A stretch of DNA of 64,000 bases from Candidatus Gastranaerophilales bacterium (GTDB lineage: Bacteria; Cyanobacteriota; Vampirovibrionia; Gastranaerophilales; Gastranaerophilaceae), in the NCBI GenBank assembly GCA_944322755.1, contig CALUPY010000002.1:1-64000 (forward strand). Reading direction: 5' to 3'. A program made the position numbers and the translations under genes. The notes beneath the pieces are model-generated. The model did no database searches and was not told the origin of the DNA. It saw only the letters and a list, made by a program, of their open reading frames with translations. The stretch's first letter is position 1; each line of letters starts with the position of its first letter. This document shows positions 6,137-45,319 of this stretch, piece by piece.

Positions 6137-6724
6137 CTATTCCAGTGCGTCATATGCTTTTTTAATTTCTTTAATATCCTGCCACATAAGCCATTTTGGA
6201 CTGCCTTTTTCGCGGGAATCATTGCGCAGCAGATAAGACGGGTGAAAAATCGGCATCATTTTAGAGCCATACGGCCCGTCAAACCATTTTCCCCTTAGTT
6301 TTGTAATTCCGGTTGTACTATTGAGCATTGAGTTTACAGCAACACCGCCGCAGAGTAGTATGATACGCGGTTTTAAAATTTCAATCTGTGCATCCAGATA
6401 TTCACGGCAGGCAGCTTTTTCATCCGGCAACGGATTACGATTATCCGGCGGGCGGCATTTCAGTGTATTACAAATATAGACATCTGTTTTTCTTGACAAA
6501 CCGACACAATCAAAAATTTTATCCAGAAGCTGACCTGCTTTTCCGACAAACGGCTCTCCTTTCTGGTCTTCCCAGTATCCAGGGGCTTCTCCTATAAGCA
6601 TAAGCTTGTGATTAGGTACACCGCCCGAGAATACAGAATTTGTCCTTGTCTCCCCAAGCGGGCATTTATTACAATTACGGCATTTTTCTCTAATTTTATC
6701 CAGTGCATCAGAGTCAACAGTCAT
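6137..6724 (-). CDS. Family-4 uracil-DNA glycosylase (Fe-S)
   Basis: Removes uracil from DNA as the first step of base-excision repair. The start MTVDSD (ATG at 6724) is chosen over an upstream ATG at 6739 because GGAGG lies 8 nt before it. The upstream ATG would give a 5-residue extension overlapping the preceding gene. Motif A is GEAPGYWEDQKGEPFVGKAG and motif B is HPSYLLRN. C15, C18 and C21 plus the cysteines of CNTLKCRPPDNRNP include the residues expected to ligate the [4Fe-4S] cluster of the family. The length of 195 aa is usual. It lies directly behind the small Cys-rich exported protein gene, probably on the same transcript. Confidence 0.92.
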   Translation of the reverse strand: MTVDSDALDKIREKCRNCNKCPLGETRTNSVFSGGVPNHKLMLIGEAPGYWEDQKGEPFVGKAGQLLDKIFDCVGLSRKTDVYICNTLKCRPPDNRNPLPDEKAACREYLDAQIEILKPRIILLCGGVAVNSMLNSTTGITKLRGKWFDGPYGSKMMPIFHPSYLLRNDSREKGSPKWLMWQDIKEIKKAYDALE

Positions 6725-38844: not shown

Positions 38845-39300
38845 ATGAAAATTTTTGCTGTAAAAAATATTGATTTGACTCCAAAAACGGTTTTTTCCAA
38901 TAAAATGCCTGTTTCTTTTTGTGCAAAAGAAATACCAACGCAATCACAGTACAATGATTTAAGAGTTTTTTACCATCATATTTATGAATACAAAAAGGGC
39001 TTGAGGAGTCTTGTCTTAACGACAGAAAAGGCTGATAATCGTTGGATTATCGAAAACAAACTCCAGAAAGAACAAATTCCGTACGTAATAAATAATATAA
39101 ATGCTAAAAACATAAATGTATTTTTTGGCAATAGAGATTGCATAAGGGTTGTTTCTACATTTGACAGCAGACTGGATAAATTGACTCCTGAACAGGACTT
39201 TATGCTTGGGATAATGCTCGGGTATGACAAAATACTGCAGTGCAGGAGATATTTTGTCATGAGAGATAAATATTTTTTAAAAAACTCGAAATACAGCTAA
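38845..39300 (+). CDS. Unknown 151-aa protein with VSFCAK tag
   Basis: MKIFAVKNIDLTPKTVFSNKMPVSFCAKEI at the N-terminus carries the Phe-tag (SFCAK) at about 24-28. The rest is a compact alpha/beta protein (RSLVLTTEKADNRWIIENKL..., NVFFGNRDCIRVVSTFDSRL) without TM segment or recognised motif. AGGGA precedes the start. It lies 75 bp upstream of cas9 and could share a transcript with it, but the array-side genes have their own -10 box. Confidence 0.6.
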   Translation: MKIFAVKNIDLTPKTVFSNKMPVSFCAKEIPTQSQYNDLRVFYHHIYEYKKGLRSLVLTTEKADNRWIIENKLQKEQIPYVINNINAKNINVFFGNRDCIRVVSTFDSRLDKLTPEQDFMLGIMLGYDKILQCRRYFVMRDKYFLKNSKYS

Positions 39301-39350: not shown

Positions 39351-39376
39351 TGTTTAAAATAAGTTTAGGGCAAAGT

Positions 39377-42300
39377 ATGACAAAAAGAATTTTTGCATTT
39401 GATTTAGGAAAAACAAGCATTGGATACTGTGCAAGAGAAGGACATGAAATAAAAGAAGCTGAATCTGTCATCATAGATATAGATCATGCTGAAGCAGTTT
39501 CATTAAGAGATCGCCGAAGAATATTCCGAACGCTTAATGCACACAAAGCACGTGAAAAATATTTTAACAAAATCTGGATAGACTGCGGTCATCCTATCCT
39601 TGAACAAAATGATGAAAGATTCACGAAAGAATTTGCAGCTAAAGGCGATACGGAAATTTATAATTCATGCCTATTAAGGATTGCACTGCTACAAAACAGA
39701 AAACTTGCTGACTGGCAAATATACAAAGCACTGCATAGCGCGATACAGCGCAGGGGCTATGACCCGAATCTTGCCTGGAAGTCAGCACAAACAGATGATG
39801 ACAAAGAGAATCTAGAGCTTGCAAAAAAATATACCCAAGAAAATGGGGAAGAAATTATTCAAAACGAAAATTACAAATACCCGTGTTATTATGACGCACT
39901 AAGGCTCGGTATGTGGTCAGAAAGCAGTCCGGAGGATCTGAAACCGTTCAATCCGCAGCAAAACTTTAACAAAGTTCGTTCCACAAACTATGTAGCGCCC
40001 AGAAATCTTGTTGAAAAAGAATTGAAACAGCTATGGTTGAATGCACAAAAGCAGCTTCCGAAACTGAACAAATATTCGCCTGAGGAATTTTTATACGGAG
40101 AATACAGGGAGGCTTACGGTTCGTATATTAACCTTGACTATCGCCAGTATCTAGGCAGTGAGAATGATTGGCAGGGAGTGCTCGGACAAAAAATTCCGCG
40201 TTTTGACAACAGAATTATTGCAAAATGCAAACTCCTTCCCAAAAGAAATGTTTGCAAGGCGAACACTCTTGAAAATGTTACTTTAGTCTTGCTTTTAAAA
40301 TTAAAAAACTTAAGGATAACGAATAATGAAGGGGATAAAGTCAGACTTAGTCCGATTGATATAAAAGCAATTTATGACAATTGGCTTAAAAAAGTCCAAG
40401 GGCGAGATGGTAAACTCGATACAACAATTACAAAGAAAGAAATAGAAGATATAATCGGGCAAAAAATTATAGACAAAATAGAACCGATGAAAGCAGATAT
40501 TGGTGGTCGTTCGTCTTTTTGTCGCAGAGCATGCAAGATTATGGCGGATATTATACTATTAGGTGAACTTTATCCGCAAAAAATAGATGTTTCTGGATAT
40601 ATAGACCCGCCTGAGACGAAAAATGGAATCACTGAAGAAGAAATCAGAACAATGCTTGCTAAAATAGGCGACTGGAACAATTTGTACATTCCTGACAATA
40701 GAAACGAAAATGCAGCAATTGCCGAAAACACCAGAGAAAAAACAGATATTATGATTGGCGGTATAACCAATCCTGTTGTAAGAAACAGGCTGCAGATTTT
40801 CAGGGATTTACTGTTTGAATTAGCAGATAAATACGGAAAACCGGATGAAGTGATTTTTGAATTTGTAAGAGAAGGTGCTGACAATTCGCTGTTCGGACGA
40901 CTTAAAGCACAAAGCGCCGAATCGTACATGAAAAATCAGGAAAAAGAAAACAATCAAATAAAACAGGAACTTTCTGACGCCGGTGCATTAAGTCCGACAA
41001 ATTTTGAAAAAGCAAAACTCTTAAAAATACAAGGCGGTAAATGTATCTACAGCGGGCAGCCCATAGCCGTTTCTGACTTTGACAAATGTGAAATTGACCA
41101 TATATACCCCCGCACAATGGGCGGCAACGATGCACTTTACAACAAAGTTCTTTGCTTTAGGTCTGAAAATCAGAAAAAGCAAGGGCGTACCCCTTATGAA
41201 TGGATGTCTAAAGACAAAGAATTGTGGACAAATTACGTTAACAGACTCAATGACATAAAAAAACAGCTTGGCAAAAAGAAATATGAACTTTTAACAAGCA
41301 AACCGGAAGATTGTGAAAAACTCATAGATAGTTATAACGGGCTGGCAGAAACAAGCCACATAGCAAAAATTGCGCAGCAGATTACAGCTTTCACTTTCGG
41401 ATGGGGGCTTCAGGTTGAAGGAGAAAACAGGCATATCTATGTTAACAACGGTTCTTCAACCTTTGCAATTCGCAAAAGATACGGACTAAATGCGCTGCTA
41501 GGTGATGCGGAAAAGAAAAACCGCCAAAATGACAAACACCACGCGCTTGATGCTATTTGTATAAGTTATGCAAGAGAATTTAAGTATGATAAAACTTTAA
41601 ACAAAGATGTTATTGAAGGTTTTAATCCGGAAGTCGTGAAAAACGTGATAGACCACATAATTCCATATCCTTATGCAAATAAAAAGGCGCTAAAAAGCAA
41701 TACAAGACCGCTTGAAACAATATACGGAAAGCGAATGGTCAACGGCAAAGCCTGTATAACAAACAGAATTTCACTTGAATCGCTTGAACCAAAGGAAAAG
41801 AAAGTAAGAAATATAGTCGATGAAGTTATAAAAACCGACCTGTTAAGCAAACTCGAACAAAAACCATCTCAGGAGGACTGGTATAATTACTTGAAAGACT
41901 ACATACATCCTAAGAAAAAAACAAAAGTCAAAAAAGTTATGATTGTTGTTTCAGAGGGTACGCTTGAACAGGATTCAAACGGACGCGACAGAATCGGCGA
42001 ATACTGCGATTACGGAACAAAAGGCACTAAGGGGCAGTTTAAATGCTCCAAAGGGCATAAGGGACAAATCCTTTATTACAACGAAAAAGGTGCAGTAAAA
42101 GTCATGCCTGTATACTCAAATAAAAAAACACAGGAAGTGAGAGACAAGCTTGTTGAAATGGGCTGCAAACTGTATGCAGGCGGACAGATGTTCTACTCGG
42201 GGTGTCTTGTGAATATCCCTAGCGACTTCAAAGCCGGTGCAGATACTCATCCGGCAGGCGTGTATAAGTTGAGAACTATTCAATCAAATGGCGTTTTAAA

Positions 42301-42382
42301 AATAGAAAGCAATAACGGTTTGGAAATCGTATCTAGCGTAAAAAACCTTACTGATGCCAATTTCAAAAAATATAGTTCTTAA
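39377..42382 (+). CDS. cas9: Cas9, compact type II-C
   Basis: 1001 residues from ATG 39377. AGGG lies 9 nt upstream and RuvC-I then begins at the usual place, so a 12-residue longer frame is rejected. Nuclease residues: D9 in FAFDLGKTSIG (RuvC-I), an Arg-rich bridge helix (LRDRRRIFRTLNAHKARE), E495 in VIFEFVRE (RuvC-II), the HNH motif with D574-H575 in EIDHIYPRTMGGNDALYNKVLCF, and H722/D725 in KHHALDAI (RuvC-III). All are intact. Length, the short REC region and operon order cas9-cas1-cas2 without csn2 or cas4 place it in II-C. The C-terminal 200 residues (wedge/PAM-interacting) are Lys-rich. It cuts DNA guided by crRNA plus tracrRNA. Confidence 0.96.
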   Translation: MTKRIFAFDLGKTSIGYCAREGHEIKEAESVIIDIDHAEAVSLRDRRRIFRTLNAHKAREKYFNKIWIDCGHPILEQNDERFTKEFAAKGDTEIYNSCLLRIALLQNRKLADWQIYKALHSAIQRRGYDPNLAWKSAQTDDDKENLELAKKYTQENGEEIIQNENYKYPCYYDALRLGMWSESSPEDLKPFNPQQNFNKVRSTNYVAPRNLVEKELKQLWLNAQKQLPKLNKYSPEEFLYGEYREAYGSYINLDYRQYLGSENDWQGVLGQKIPRFDNRIIAKCKLLPKRNVCKANTLENVTLVLLLKLKNLRITNNEGDKVRLSPIDIKAIYDNWLKKVQGRDGKLDTTITKKEIEDIIGQKIIDKIEPMKADIGGRSSFCRRACKIMADIILLGELYPQKIDVSGYIDPPETKNGITEEEIRTMLAKIGDWNNLYIPDNRNENAAIAENTREKTDIMIGGITNPVVRNRLQIFRDLLFELADKYGKPDEVIFEFVREGADNSLFGRLKAQSAESYMKNQEKENNQIKQELSDAGALSPTNFEKAKLLKIQGGKCIYSGQPIAVSDFDKCEIDHIYPRTMGGNDALYNKVLCFRSENQKKQGRTPYEWMSKDKELWTNYVNRLNDIKKQLGKKKYELLTSKPEDCEKLIDSYNGLAETSHIAKIAQQITAFTFGWGLQVEGENRHIYVNNGSSTFAIRKRYGLNALLGDAEKKNRQNDKHHALDAICISYAREFKYDKTLNKDVIEGFNPEVVKNVIDHIIPYPYANKKALKSNTRPLETIYGKRMVNGKACITNRISLESLEPKEKKVRNIVDEVIKTDLLSKLEQKPSQEDWYNYLKDYIHPKKKTKVKKVMIVVSEGTLEQDSNGRDRIGEYCDYGTKGTKGQFKCSKGHKGQILYYNEKGAVKVMPVYSNKKTQEVRDKLVEMGCKLYAGGQMFYSGCLVNIPSDFKAGADTHPAGVYKLRTIQSNGVLKIESNNGLEIVSSVKNLTDANFKKYSS

Positions 42383-42420: not shown

Positions 42421-43368
42421 ATGAGCTATCATATTTTGCACATTACTACACCTGAATGTTACCTCTCGGTAGAAAGAGGGCTATTGTTTTGCAAGAACAA
42501 AGAAGGCGAAACAAAATCTATCGCATTAGATGATATAAGGGCTGTTATAGTTGCAGCACAAGGGATTGCGTTTTCTAATAACTGTCTGTCAAGACTTTTA
42601 GAGAACAATGTTGTTATACTGCACTGCAATAATTCGTACCGTCCTGTCGGTTGGAGTGTACCTTTGGAAAGGATTGTGCGTCCGAAAGTTTTTTACTGCC
42701 AGATAGAGCAAAATGCGGATTTTGAAACTAAACTGTGGAAGAAAATCCTGCTTTCTAAAGTAACAAATCAAGCAAAAAACCTTGACCTTATAGGTAATAC
42801 CGAACACAATCTTTACAACCTTATAAACCGCCCGCTTATGAATGAAGCAAACATTGCCAAACAATACTGGCAGAATTATTTTATTGAAATAGGAAATCCG
42901 ATAAAAAGAGAACACCTGAATGCGGAAACTTTTGAAAACGGCTGTCTAAATTATGGCTATGCTGTAATTAATTCTCTTGTGTATCGTTCTGTTATTGTGC
43001 ATGGTCTTATTGCCAGCCTGGGGATTCATCACAAAGGCAAATACAAAAGTACACCGCTTGTTTATGACTTGATGGAACCATACAGGGCATTTATTGATTA
43101 TTATTTTTATCAATTTGTAAAGGAGTGTGAAATAGATTATGATCAGGAGAACTATCAGGCTTGGTTTAAATATCTTGCTGATTGCATAAAAAATTATCGT
43201 TTAAAAATTGATAGCGTAAGTTACAAACTTATTGATACCATAGATATTTATGTAGAAAAAATTGTTGATGCTTATATAAAATTTGACTGTTCAAATATTT
43301 TTCTTCCGGATATAAAGGAGCAGTATTTGCATATTGATAAACACAGGAACAGGGAATATGAGGAGTAA
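42421..43368 (+). CDS. cas1: Cas1 integrase
   Basis: 315 residues, a usual type II Cas1 length. LDDIRAVIVAAQGIAFSNNCLSRLLENNVVILHCN forms the N-terminal beta domain. The catalytic helical domain contains ENGCLNYGYAVINSLVYRSVIVHGL with the metal-binding Glu, and a later His/Asp in LGIHHKGKYKSTPLVYDLMEPYRAFID. With Cas2 it inserts new spacers at the leader-side repeat. It starts 38 bp after cas9, without a clear Shine-Dalgarno, and overlaps cas2. Confidence 0.95.
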   Translation: MSYHILHITTPECYLSVERGLLFCKNKEGETKSIALDDIRAVIVAAQGIAFSNNCLSRLLENNVVILHCNNSYRPVGWSVPLERIVRPKVFYCQIEQNADFETKLWKKILLSKVTNQAKNLDLIGNTEHNLYNLINRPLMNEANIAKQYWQNYFIEIGNPIKREHLNAETFENGCLNYGYAVINSLVYRSVIVHGLIASLGIHHKGKYKSTPLVYDLMEPYRAFIDYYFYQFVKECEIDYDQENYQAWFKYLADCIKNYRLKIDSVSYKLIDTIDIYVEKIVDAYIKFDCSNIFLPDIKEQYLHIDKHRNREYEE

Positions 43369-43705
43369 ATATCGTATGGGCTGGCTTATTGTGTGTTTTG
43401 ATTTGCCTGTCGTGGAAAAAGAAAATCAGAGGCAGGCAAATGCTTTTCGTAAAGCGCTGCTTAATATGGGATATTTCATGCTACAAAATTCGATATATGT
43501 AAGATCATGCGTCACCTATGACAGAACAGAACAACATATAAAAAACCTAAAACTGATAGCCCCCTCAACAGGTTCAATTGTGGCTTTTTATATTACAGAC
43601 AAACAGTGGAGTCTGTCAGTCTGTATTGACAAATACGAATACAACCCCTCAAAATACAAGAAAAAAGCAGGCGAAAACACAGAAAAACAGATGACATTCT
43701 GGTAA
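43358..43705 (+). CDS. cas2: Cas2
   Basis: 115 residues from MRSKYRMGWLIVCFDLPV, the start that matches the N-termini of type II Cas2 proteins I recall (S-x-YRIMW-x-x-x-FFDLP). A start at 43376 with GAGGAG upstream is an alternative. The CFDLPV strand, FRKALLNMGYFMLQNSIYVRSC and TGSIVAFYITDKQW are family features. It overlaps the end of cas1 by 11 bp. Structural partner of Cas1 in spacer acquisition. Confidence 0.94.
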   Translation: MRSKYRMGWLIVCFDLPVVEKENQRQANAFRKALLNMGYFMLQNSIYVRSCVTYDRTEQHIKNLKLIAPSTGSIVAFYITDKQWSLSVCIDKYEYNPSKYKKKAGENTEKQMTFW

Positions 43706-43749
43706 TTTTGCTGTAGAATATCATTATCAATGTATTTAAATTTTTTTGT

Positions 43750-43846
43750 TGAGGTTTAGAGAATGAGTCTATTCGTACAATTAAGCAGAGGAGCAAACTA
43801 TTCTCTTGTCAATTATGATTGGTCTCTTAATTTTAAATATATTACT
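43750..43846 (-). ncRNA. Predicted tracrRNA, antisense to the cas operon
   Basis: Reading leftward, 43844-43812 is complementary to the crRNA-sense repeat. The upper stem pairs over about 22 positions with one mismatch. A bulge follows with two repeat bases (UU) against three tracr bases (ACC). The lower stem has nine positions and one mismatch, down to the GUUUU end. The layout of two stems and an asymmetric bulge is what Cas9 recognises. A TATACA-17-TATAAT promoter (minus strand 43880-43875 and 43857-43852) would start the RNA at about 43845. Downstream, GAGAAUAGUUU pairs with AGACUCAUUCUC. The AAGAG...CUCUGC...CUAAACC order recalls the Campylobacter jejuni tracrRNA (from memory). No strong T-run terminator, so the 3' end is uncertain. 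Confidence 0.75.
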
Positions 43847-43884
43847 TTTTTATTATATATCATTTATTCAATTTTGTATATCCT

Positions 43885-44906
43885 ATTATAACATATTTTA
43901 AATTAAGAGAAAATCAAAACATGAAAAACTTGCAGATTGAGGGTTTAAAAATTATAACATATTTTAAATTAAGAGAAAATCAAAACCCGTTCGTTATTGC
44001 TTGATCTGACAAGCCATTATAACATATTTTAAATTAAGAGAAAATCAAAACTCTTTTTCGTTTTGTTTGAATTTTTTTAAATTATAACATATTTTAAATT
44101 AAGAGAAAATCAAAACTCTTTTTTGTCAATACCTTTTTCGATTAAAATTATAACATATTTTAAATTAAGAGAAAATCAAAACCTCACTTGTTTACCATAC
44201 GCGTCGTTGGAAATTATAACATATTTTAAATTAAGAGAAAATCAAAACTAGCTTTTTGGAATCTTATACATTTTTTTTATTATAACATATTTTAAATTAA
44301 GAGAAAATCAAAACAGTATTTCTTGGTGTTCCTACATTTTGACCATTATAACATATTTTAAATTAAGAGAAAATCAAAACTACTGTACAGGCTTACCGGT
44401 GTTTAAGTAATTATAACATATTTTAAATTAAGAGAAAATCAAAACAATGAGTCCGGACTTTTACCGGATAGTGTTATTATAACATATTTTAAATTAAGAG
44501 AAAATCAAAACTTAGTATATAAAGCTTCTTGTTTTCCGACCATTATAACATATTTTAAATTAAGAGAAAATCAAAACATAGTGCTCCACCTACCCATCCT
44601 GTTGTCAATTATAACATATTTTAAATTAAGAGAAAATCAAAACCTTCGGCGATCAGTTTAATTGCCCATTCTATTATAACATATTTTAAATTAAGAGAAA
44701 ATCAAAACATCTTTTTTGTCAATACCTTTTTCAATTAAATTATAACATATTTTAAATTAAGAGAAAATCAAAACATGAGAATTCTGTCCCTGAACGATAT
44801 AAGGATTATAACATATTTTAAATTAAGAGAAAATCAAAACTTGAGATTGTCGGAAATCAAACCTTTAGGTAATATAACATATTTTAAATTTAGAAAAAAT
44901 CAACAA
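43885..44906 (-). CRISPR. Type II-C CRISPR array, 16 repeats and 15 spacers
   Basis: 36-bp repeats (on the plus strand ATTATAACAT, ATTTTAAATT, AAGAGAAAAT, CAAAAC) with 29- or 30-bp spacers, giving a 65-66-bp period. Repeats 1-15 (43885-44840) are identical. Repeat 16 (44871-44906) is degenerate with five changes, four of them in the right-hand 16 bases. The crRNA sense is minus: the repeat then starts GUUUUGAUUUUC and ends in TGTTATAAT, an extended -10 box. The degenerate end lies away from cas2, so the acquisition end is the cas2 side. Spacers 4 and 13 target nearly the same sequence. No self-match to the window was noticed. Confidence 0.97.
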
Positions 44907-44910
44907 CTAC

Positions 44911-45192
44911 TTAAACCCTATTTCTGTCAATTAAAAAACTCATACCGCTCACAACTCCGGCGCATGTACCAATCAATCCGTTGAGAGCAAAAGAATTTTT
45001 TGTCGGAGATTTGGAAAATCTTATATGCCGTGAGAGCATATCCAATACTATTCCGAATCCAAACCATCCGCCAGCTGTGCTTATTCCTTTTTTAACGGCT
45101 TGGGTTTTGCTGAAAGCAGGGCTGCTTTTTTGATTTTTCGGGTTATGAAAATTTACAGGAATGTATGTTGTATTTATTGGATTTACTTTCAT
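44911..45192 (-). CDS. Small membrane protein, Phe-tag type
   Basis: 93 residues. N-terminus MKVNPINTTYIPVNFHNPKNQKSSPAFSKTQ with VNFHN in the tag position. Two hydrophobic segments follow (AGGWFGFGIVLDMLS at about 40-54 and LNGLIGTCAGVVSGMSFLI at about 69-87). Its 3' end lies 4 bp beyond the last degenerate CRISPR repeat, so the array ends exactly at this gene. Function unknown. Confidence 0.6.
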   Translation of the reverse strand: MKVNPINTTYIPVNFHNPKNQKSSPAFSKTQAVKKGISTAGGWFGFGIVLDMLSRHIRFSKSPTKNSFALNGLIGTCAGVVSGMSFLIDRNRV

Positions 45193-45244: not shown

Positions 45245-45319
45245 TGGCTGGGGCGAAAGGATTCGAACCTCTGAATGCCTGGACCAAAACCAGGTGCCTT
45301 ACCACTTGGCGACGCCCCA
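45245..45319 (-). tRNA. tRNA-Gln (anticodon UUG)
   Basis: Acceptor stem UGGGGCG/CGCCCCA, D-arm GCCAAGUGGUAAGGC, anticodon loop UUUUGGU with UUG, T-arm AGAGGUUCGAAUCCUUU. Discriminator G and encoded CCA are present. The U1-A72 pair is typical of tRNA-Gln. Confidence 0.97.

Follow-up and report, generated by a model that had tools for sequence, protein, structure and literature searches.

Extended -10 boxes at the ends of CRISPR repeats in a Gastranaerophilales Cas9 locus and their predicted role as crRNA promoters

The repeats of a CRISPR array in a Candidatus Gastranaerophilales bacterium end in what looks like a perfect extended -10 box, which raises the question whether each repeat starts its own crRNA or whether the box is kept for some other reason. 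We addressed this question for a window of 64,000 nucleotides (positions 1 to 64,000 of contig CALUPY010000002.1, assembly GCA_944322755.1) and for related arrays. In the type II-C system of Neisseria meningitidis, promoters reportedly lie in the repeats and crRNAs start inside the spacers, as described by Zhang and coworkers in 2013. In the type II-C system of Campylobacter jejuni, in which the repeats end in GGTAAAAT, the mapped crRNA starts fall on position 5 of the spacer, and the crRNA 3' end is still generated by RNase III together with the tracrRNA (PMC3656092). The accessible text of a II-C survey of 132 genomes describes a sigma-70 -10 element at the repeat 3' end, arrays antisense and convergent to the cas genes, a downstream tracrRNA that has its own TGnTAnaaT and covaries with the repeat, and a degenerate proximal repeat, the decaying half of which that text does not specify (PMC4607530). 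In Flavobacterium, repeat-encoded promoters of a different sequence have been inferred (PMC8092290, PMC10309648).

Organization of the locus

The locus is a small type II CRISPR-Cas9 system of a Gastranaerophilales bacterium, in which cas9, cas1 and cas2 are followed by an array. On the plus strand, cas9 (39374..42382) encodes 1002 amino acids from the ATG at 39374, within an open reading frame (ORF) open from 39341; cas1 (42421..43368) is of type II (NMENI; TIGR03639, 162 bits; PADLOC Cas1_II); and cas2 (43358..43705; Pfam CRISPR_Cas2, TIGR01573) has an uncertain start codon in an ORF open from 43334. Among the ORFs and family matches, csn2 and cas4 are absent. The array (43885..44906) consists of 16 repeats of 36 nt and 15 spacers of 29-30 nt; with the cas genes on the plus strand and the crRNA sense on the minus strand, it is, by arrangement, antisense and convergent to them. 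Upstream of the array in the crRNA sense, the minus strand carries a 93-aa ORF (44911..45192), which is co-directional with the array and stops 4 nt short of it, and, farther upstream, a tRNA-Gln (45245..45319). The genome (2.19 Mb) contains a single array with this repeat and encodes RNase III. A gene for a DUF2023 protein (38845-39300) is located just 5' of cas9, on the same strand.

Two spacers (44117-44146 and 44709-44738) are nearly identical, differing by one substitution and a 1-nt shift, and probably represent two acquisitions from variants of one target. When stretches of the spacers were matched exactly to IMG/VR, no protospacer came up, and hence no PAM could be read.

The extended -10 box and its conservation

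Fifteen of the 16 repeats are identical and read, in the crRNA sense, GTTTTGATTTTCTCTTAATTTAAAATATGTTATAAT, terminating in TG-T-TATAAT. The statement of the first-pass annotation that all intact repeats end in an extended -10 box was confirmed: TGTTATAAT is present on the minus strand in 15/15, that is, in the leader-proximal repeat (43885..43893) and in the other 14 intact ones. Outside the array, TGNTATAAT occurs 263 times in the 2.19 Mb (278 minus 15), or about 6e-5 per position and strand, so that the chance of encountering it at the end of a given repeat is about 6e-5, and anywhere in a repeat, on either strand, about 0.003, the 15 copies of the box being counted as one event rather than 15. 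The reversed motif is found 155 times in this genome, compared to the 278 occurrences of TGNTATAAT. Across about 1 Mb of DNA from the order, with most CRISPR repeats masked, TGNTATAAT reaches 0.57/kb within 120 nt 5' of ORFs, where its reversed form stands at 0.07/kb; inside ORFs, the density of TGNTATAAT is 0.07/kb. With this enrichment upstream of genes, TGNTATAAT has the distribution of a promoter element in Gastranaerophilales. A sigma-70 scan for two hexamers detected no promoter at the repeats, which is expected for a -10-only promoter, yet provides no support for one either.

Arrays were gathered from loci that score above the cut-off of the Cas9d model (hereafter, Cas9d-family loci) and from other Cas9 loci of the same order. 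TATAAT ends 15/15 distinct repeats of the Cas9d-family loci, which, given their shared descent, are not 15 independent tests; 13 of these also have TG-N, and the TG is missing from two (L073 and L084). Positions 10-25 of these repeats are variable, and both ends are invariant. The order has a second Cas9 group with 9 distinct repeats, 8 of which likewise terminate in TATAAT; the ninth, in L114, terminates in TATGCT. L114 and L109, with repeats ending in TATGCT and TATAAT, respectively, are related arrays, and the terminal repeat of L114 retains TGATATGCT exactly.

Direction of the array and the predicted tracrRNA

The leader region (43706..43884, minus strand) flanks the array on its crRNA-3' side, as judged from 32 aligned Cas9d-family loci. 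It contains, also on the minus strand and between the array and cas2, an anti-repeat (about 43844-43812), which pairs with the repeat in a long duplex of -22 to -24 kcal/mol. Searching directly for the anti-repeat with 3 mismatches returned nothing beyond the array itself and a single unrelated site; the anti-repeat was located by reading the leader and aligning the 32 loci. Across these loci, the anti-repeat covaries with the repeat (repeat/anti-repeat pairs CTCTTAA/TTAAGAG, CTATTAG/CTAATAG and CTGATAA/TTATCAG), and therefore, the crRNA sense is the minus strand, as the first reading of the window had it. The window's anti-repeat pairs almost up to the box, and its complement does not retain TATAAT, so that repeat:anti-repeat pairing is no explanation for the box.

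The predicted tracrRNA (43753..43845, minus strand, with an undefined 3' end) is located just 3' of the array and has its own TATAAT (43852..43857, minus strand, with a -35-like TATACA at 43875-43880) at a fixed place across the Cas9d-family loci; in eight relatives, the -10 element at the matching position is the extended TGATATAAT. The leader starts with AGGATATACAAA (43873-43884), which is nearly invariant across the 32 loci; it is a candidate for the leader element that anchors spacer integration and may also belong to the tracrRNA promoter. For pairs of Cas9d-family loci, the mean shared 10-mer fraction is 0.186 in the crRNA-3' flank, which holds the conserved AGGATATACAAA, TATAAT box and tracrRNA, and 0.004 in the 120 nt on the crRNA-5' side of the array; with sharing so close to zero, the upstream side holds no conserved leader promoter.

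In the crRNA sense, the last repeat runs straight into a terminator-like hairpin and a T-run at most loci of the second Cas9 group, such that the promoter of this repeat would yield a very short, terminated RNA. The unconserved upstream flank, the conserved tracrRNA side and these hairpins all fit transcription from the repeats toward the leader. Among the second-group loci L097-L108 and L115, most show the hairpin and T-run as ACCAAAC...GTTTGGTATTTTT immediately 3' of the array. In L081, the array starts directly after an apparent tRNA 3' end, and the window likewise has the same-strand tRNA-Gln upstream.

Predicted transcription of individual crRNAs

Very probably, the repeats carry sigma-70 extended -10 promoters from which each crRNA is started individually, with its 5' end set by initiation; this reading, originally proposed from the window, is well supported, at the level of sequence, by the comparison of repeats, flanks and tracrRNA. 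We infer the promoter activity and the start sites as follows. The TG-T-TATAAT at the crRNA-3' end of the repeat would act as a sigma-70 extended -10 promoter for which a -35 element is unnecessary; from it, RNA polymerase would initiate within each spacer, about 5-7 nt in, and head toward the leader. By homology, the crRNA 5' end would be fixed by initiation rather than by cutting. The 3' end would be formed once the tracrRNA has paired with the next repeat and RNase III has cut there. The tracrRNA would be transcribed, just past the last repeat, from its own TATAAT promoter, and transcription from the box of the leader-proximal repeat (43885..43893) would enter the tracrRNA region. The description of these crRNAs as processing-independent was overstated: because RNase III makes the 3' end in C. 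jejuni and is encoded here as well, next to a long duplex of repeat and anti-repeat, independence could apply, at most, to a promoter-made 5' end and does not extend to the 3' end. Counting against the in-repeat promoters are the altered hexamer in the window's terminal repeat (see below), the missing TG of L073 and L084 and the TATGCT of L114.

Two different accounts of the box were considered. A single long pre-crRNA could be produced by read-through from the upstream ORF and tRNA-Gln, with the ends generated by RNase III or trimming and the box retained on other grounds. The window offers a possible source of such read-through, given that a same-strand ORF stops 4 nt before the array and the tRNA-Gln lies farther upstream, and both the RNase III gene and the extended repeat:anti-repeat duplex are compatible with this route. 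However, the crRNA-5' flanks share almost nothing between loci, and the nearest upstream ORF is directed away from the array at L072, L073, L083, L084 and L106, making a long precursor very unlikely as the source of these crRNAs. It is also unlikely, to a slightly lesser degree, that the repeat-terminal TATAAT owes its conservation to recognition by Cas1-Cas2 on the leader side instead of to a promoter role. In favour of this account, the box adjoins AGGATATACAAA, the near-invariant beginning of the leader, where integration is expected, and the opposite repeat end (GTTTTGAT) is equally invariant; yet the motif matches the promoter consensus in full and is enriched upstream of genes in the order, and the leader-distal repeat, which is no insertion site, retains the hexamer in 19/22 arrays, an observation that recombinational refreshing could explain too. 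The integrase and promoter roles of the box can coexist.

Decay of the leader-distal repeat

The leader-distal repeat, first in the crRNA sense (44871..44906, minus strand), is degenerate and reads TTGTTGATTTTTTCTAAATTTAAAATATGTTATATT, with changes at positions 1, 4, 12, 16 and 35. Having no crRNA handle, it would have a sole transcriptional use, as a promoter for the oldest spacer. The first-pass annotation took the clustering of four of the five changes in the handle half as the mark of such a role; the count is correct, but the fifth change, at position 35, falls in the -10 hexamer itself and converts TATAAT to TATATT (box TGTTATATT), with the TG, the first T, A and the last T retained. By itself, the 4/5 split in this one repeat is not significant (binomial about 0.19). 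The check proposed at the time, a comparison of terminal-repeat decay across related arrays, revealed an outer half that is worse in 21 of 22 arrays of the order, with one tie and no array in which it is better (sign test 9.5e-7). For this count, one array was retained from the evidently shared pair L068/L069 and contig-edge arrays were left out; L063, L079 and L101 were accepted by spacing and box, which creates a bias toward the inner half, and are weak cases. From the outside to the inside of the repeat, the changes per six-base block number 63, 62, 45, 25, 6 and 3 of 132, and the first six bases are intact in 3/22 terminal repeats, compared to 19/22 for the hexamer.

The controls for this asymmetry were few and mutually discordant. 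Of the 12 changes in the terminal repeat of the Cas12a array L120, from the same bacterial family, none is in the inner half, whereas the Cas12a arrays L118 and L119 have one change each, one per half. In the type I-E array of Escherichia coli K-12, which we take to be oriented by the leader next to cas2, the three changes in the terminal repeat, at positions 17, 18 and 28 of 29, spare the outer half. For a type I control via cas1 I-C, only five loci turned up, weak ones whose array type was unclear, and they were left out. The leader-distal Cas12a repeat of L120 (about 6327-6362) has lost its outer (handle) half and retained the inner one.

Thus, the decay pattern first noticed in the window is real and general, but it is not diagnostic of a promoter role, because L120 shares the asymmetry and recombinational contraction would produce the same; the altered hexamer in the window points in the same direction. 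As proof of promoter selection, the pattern was rejected in view of L120. The chances are somewhat below even that the pattern, taken separately from the box, needs no promoter selection and stems from refreshing of the inner half by recombination with an internal repeat or from erosion that proceeds from the outside in. Such an origin agrees with L120, where the inner half is unchanged despite having no crRNA role, and with the smooth drop in the block counts. It is harder to reconcile with the ten arrays in which the outer half is still recognisable (6 or fewer outer changes), where scattered substitutions, not simple truncation, still amount to 46 outer vs 12 inner changes; with the 8 arrays that have an intact first repeat, none of which has, one spacer farther upstream, a clear remnant of half a box; and with L118, L119 and the E. 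coli I-E array, which have no outer bias. With proper controls, half-by-half decay could serve as a sequence-only marker of in-repeat promoters and of array direction.

Cas9 lineage and relation to known systems

The Cas9 of the window matches the NCBIfam Cas9d model NF049971 over its full length with 1014.9 bits (cut-off 375) and also matches TIGR01865 (260.8 bits) and Pfam HNH_4; the RuvC/HNH residues D10, E496, H576, H722, H723 and D726 are invariant in 14 relatives. Against PDB, in a comparison that mainly covers RuvC-HNH, a 14-sequence profile scored 101-109 bits with the II-C structures 8hnt and 6jdq and 42-47 bits with HNH chains of Cas9d size (736-762 aa). There is no cas4 between cas9 and the array, and Cas1 best matches the type II NMENI models; in the 2025 classification, the II-D adaptation module consists of cas1, cas2 and cas4, with a II-D Cas1 (PMC12669027). 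The system resembles type II-D/Cas9d (PMC9755519, PMC12669027) in its full-length NF049971 match (1015 bits) and differs from it in an operon without cas4, an NMENI-type Cas1, a Cas9 of 1002 aa and lower scores for solved chains of Cas9d size (736-762 aa) than for II-C Cas9s. The initial comparison with type II-C agrees with the gene content and the neighbours among solved structures and disagrees with NCBIfam: the system is Cas9d by NCBIfam and otherwise II-C-like in architecture.

We consider it improbable that this Cas9 is a true II-D effector and that in-repeat promoters are a general II-D route to crRNA 5' ends. If this were the case, the finding would bear on pre-crRNA processing in archaeal II-D systems without RNase III. 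Selection would then be what keeps the half-decayed first repeat as a solo promoter, and such systems could be recognised from it by sequence alone. In the accessible portions of the open PMC papers on Cas9d, we found no statement on in-repeat promoters.

In-repeat promoters, an antisense array, a downstream tracrRNA and a degenerate proximal repeat have been known for II-C since the publications of 2013-2015. The window resembles the systems of the II-C survey in the repeat-end -10, the antisense array, the downstream tracrRNA with its own box, the covariation and the degenerate proximal repeat, and differs from them in a Cas9 lineage that scores as Cas9d in NCBIfam. Compared with C. jejuni, the box is TGTTATAAT instead of GGTAAAAT, the starts are predicted from sequence here and were mapped there, and the window's Cas9 is divergent. 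Accordingly, the novelty implied by the title of the first-pass annotation is low, the mechanism being already contained in PMC3656092 and PMC4607530. This is an ordinary mechanism in a new lineage, and the additions are the lineage and the half-by-half decay count. Judging by sequence, repeat-encoded crRNA promoters would extend to gut Cyanobacteriota (Gastranaerophilales), where a divergent Cas9 lineage, filed as Cas9d by one public library, carries the box at full consensus.

L094 (G174) is a decayed Cas9d-family locus, in which cas9 is interrupted by stops and isolated single repeats remain at about 3609, 5580, 5646 and 6498. L107 has, at its leader-distal end (crRNA sense, about 6282-6545), a series of four older repeat variants that diverge more and more toward the edge and document how the repeat changed over time.
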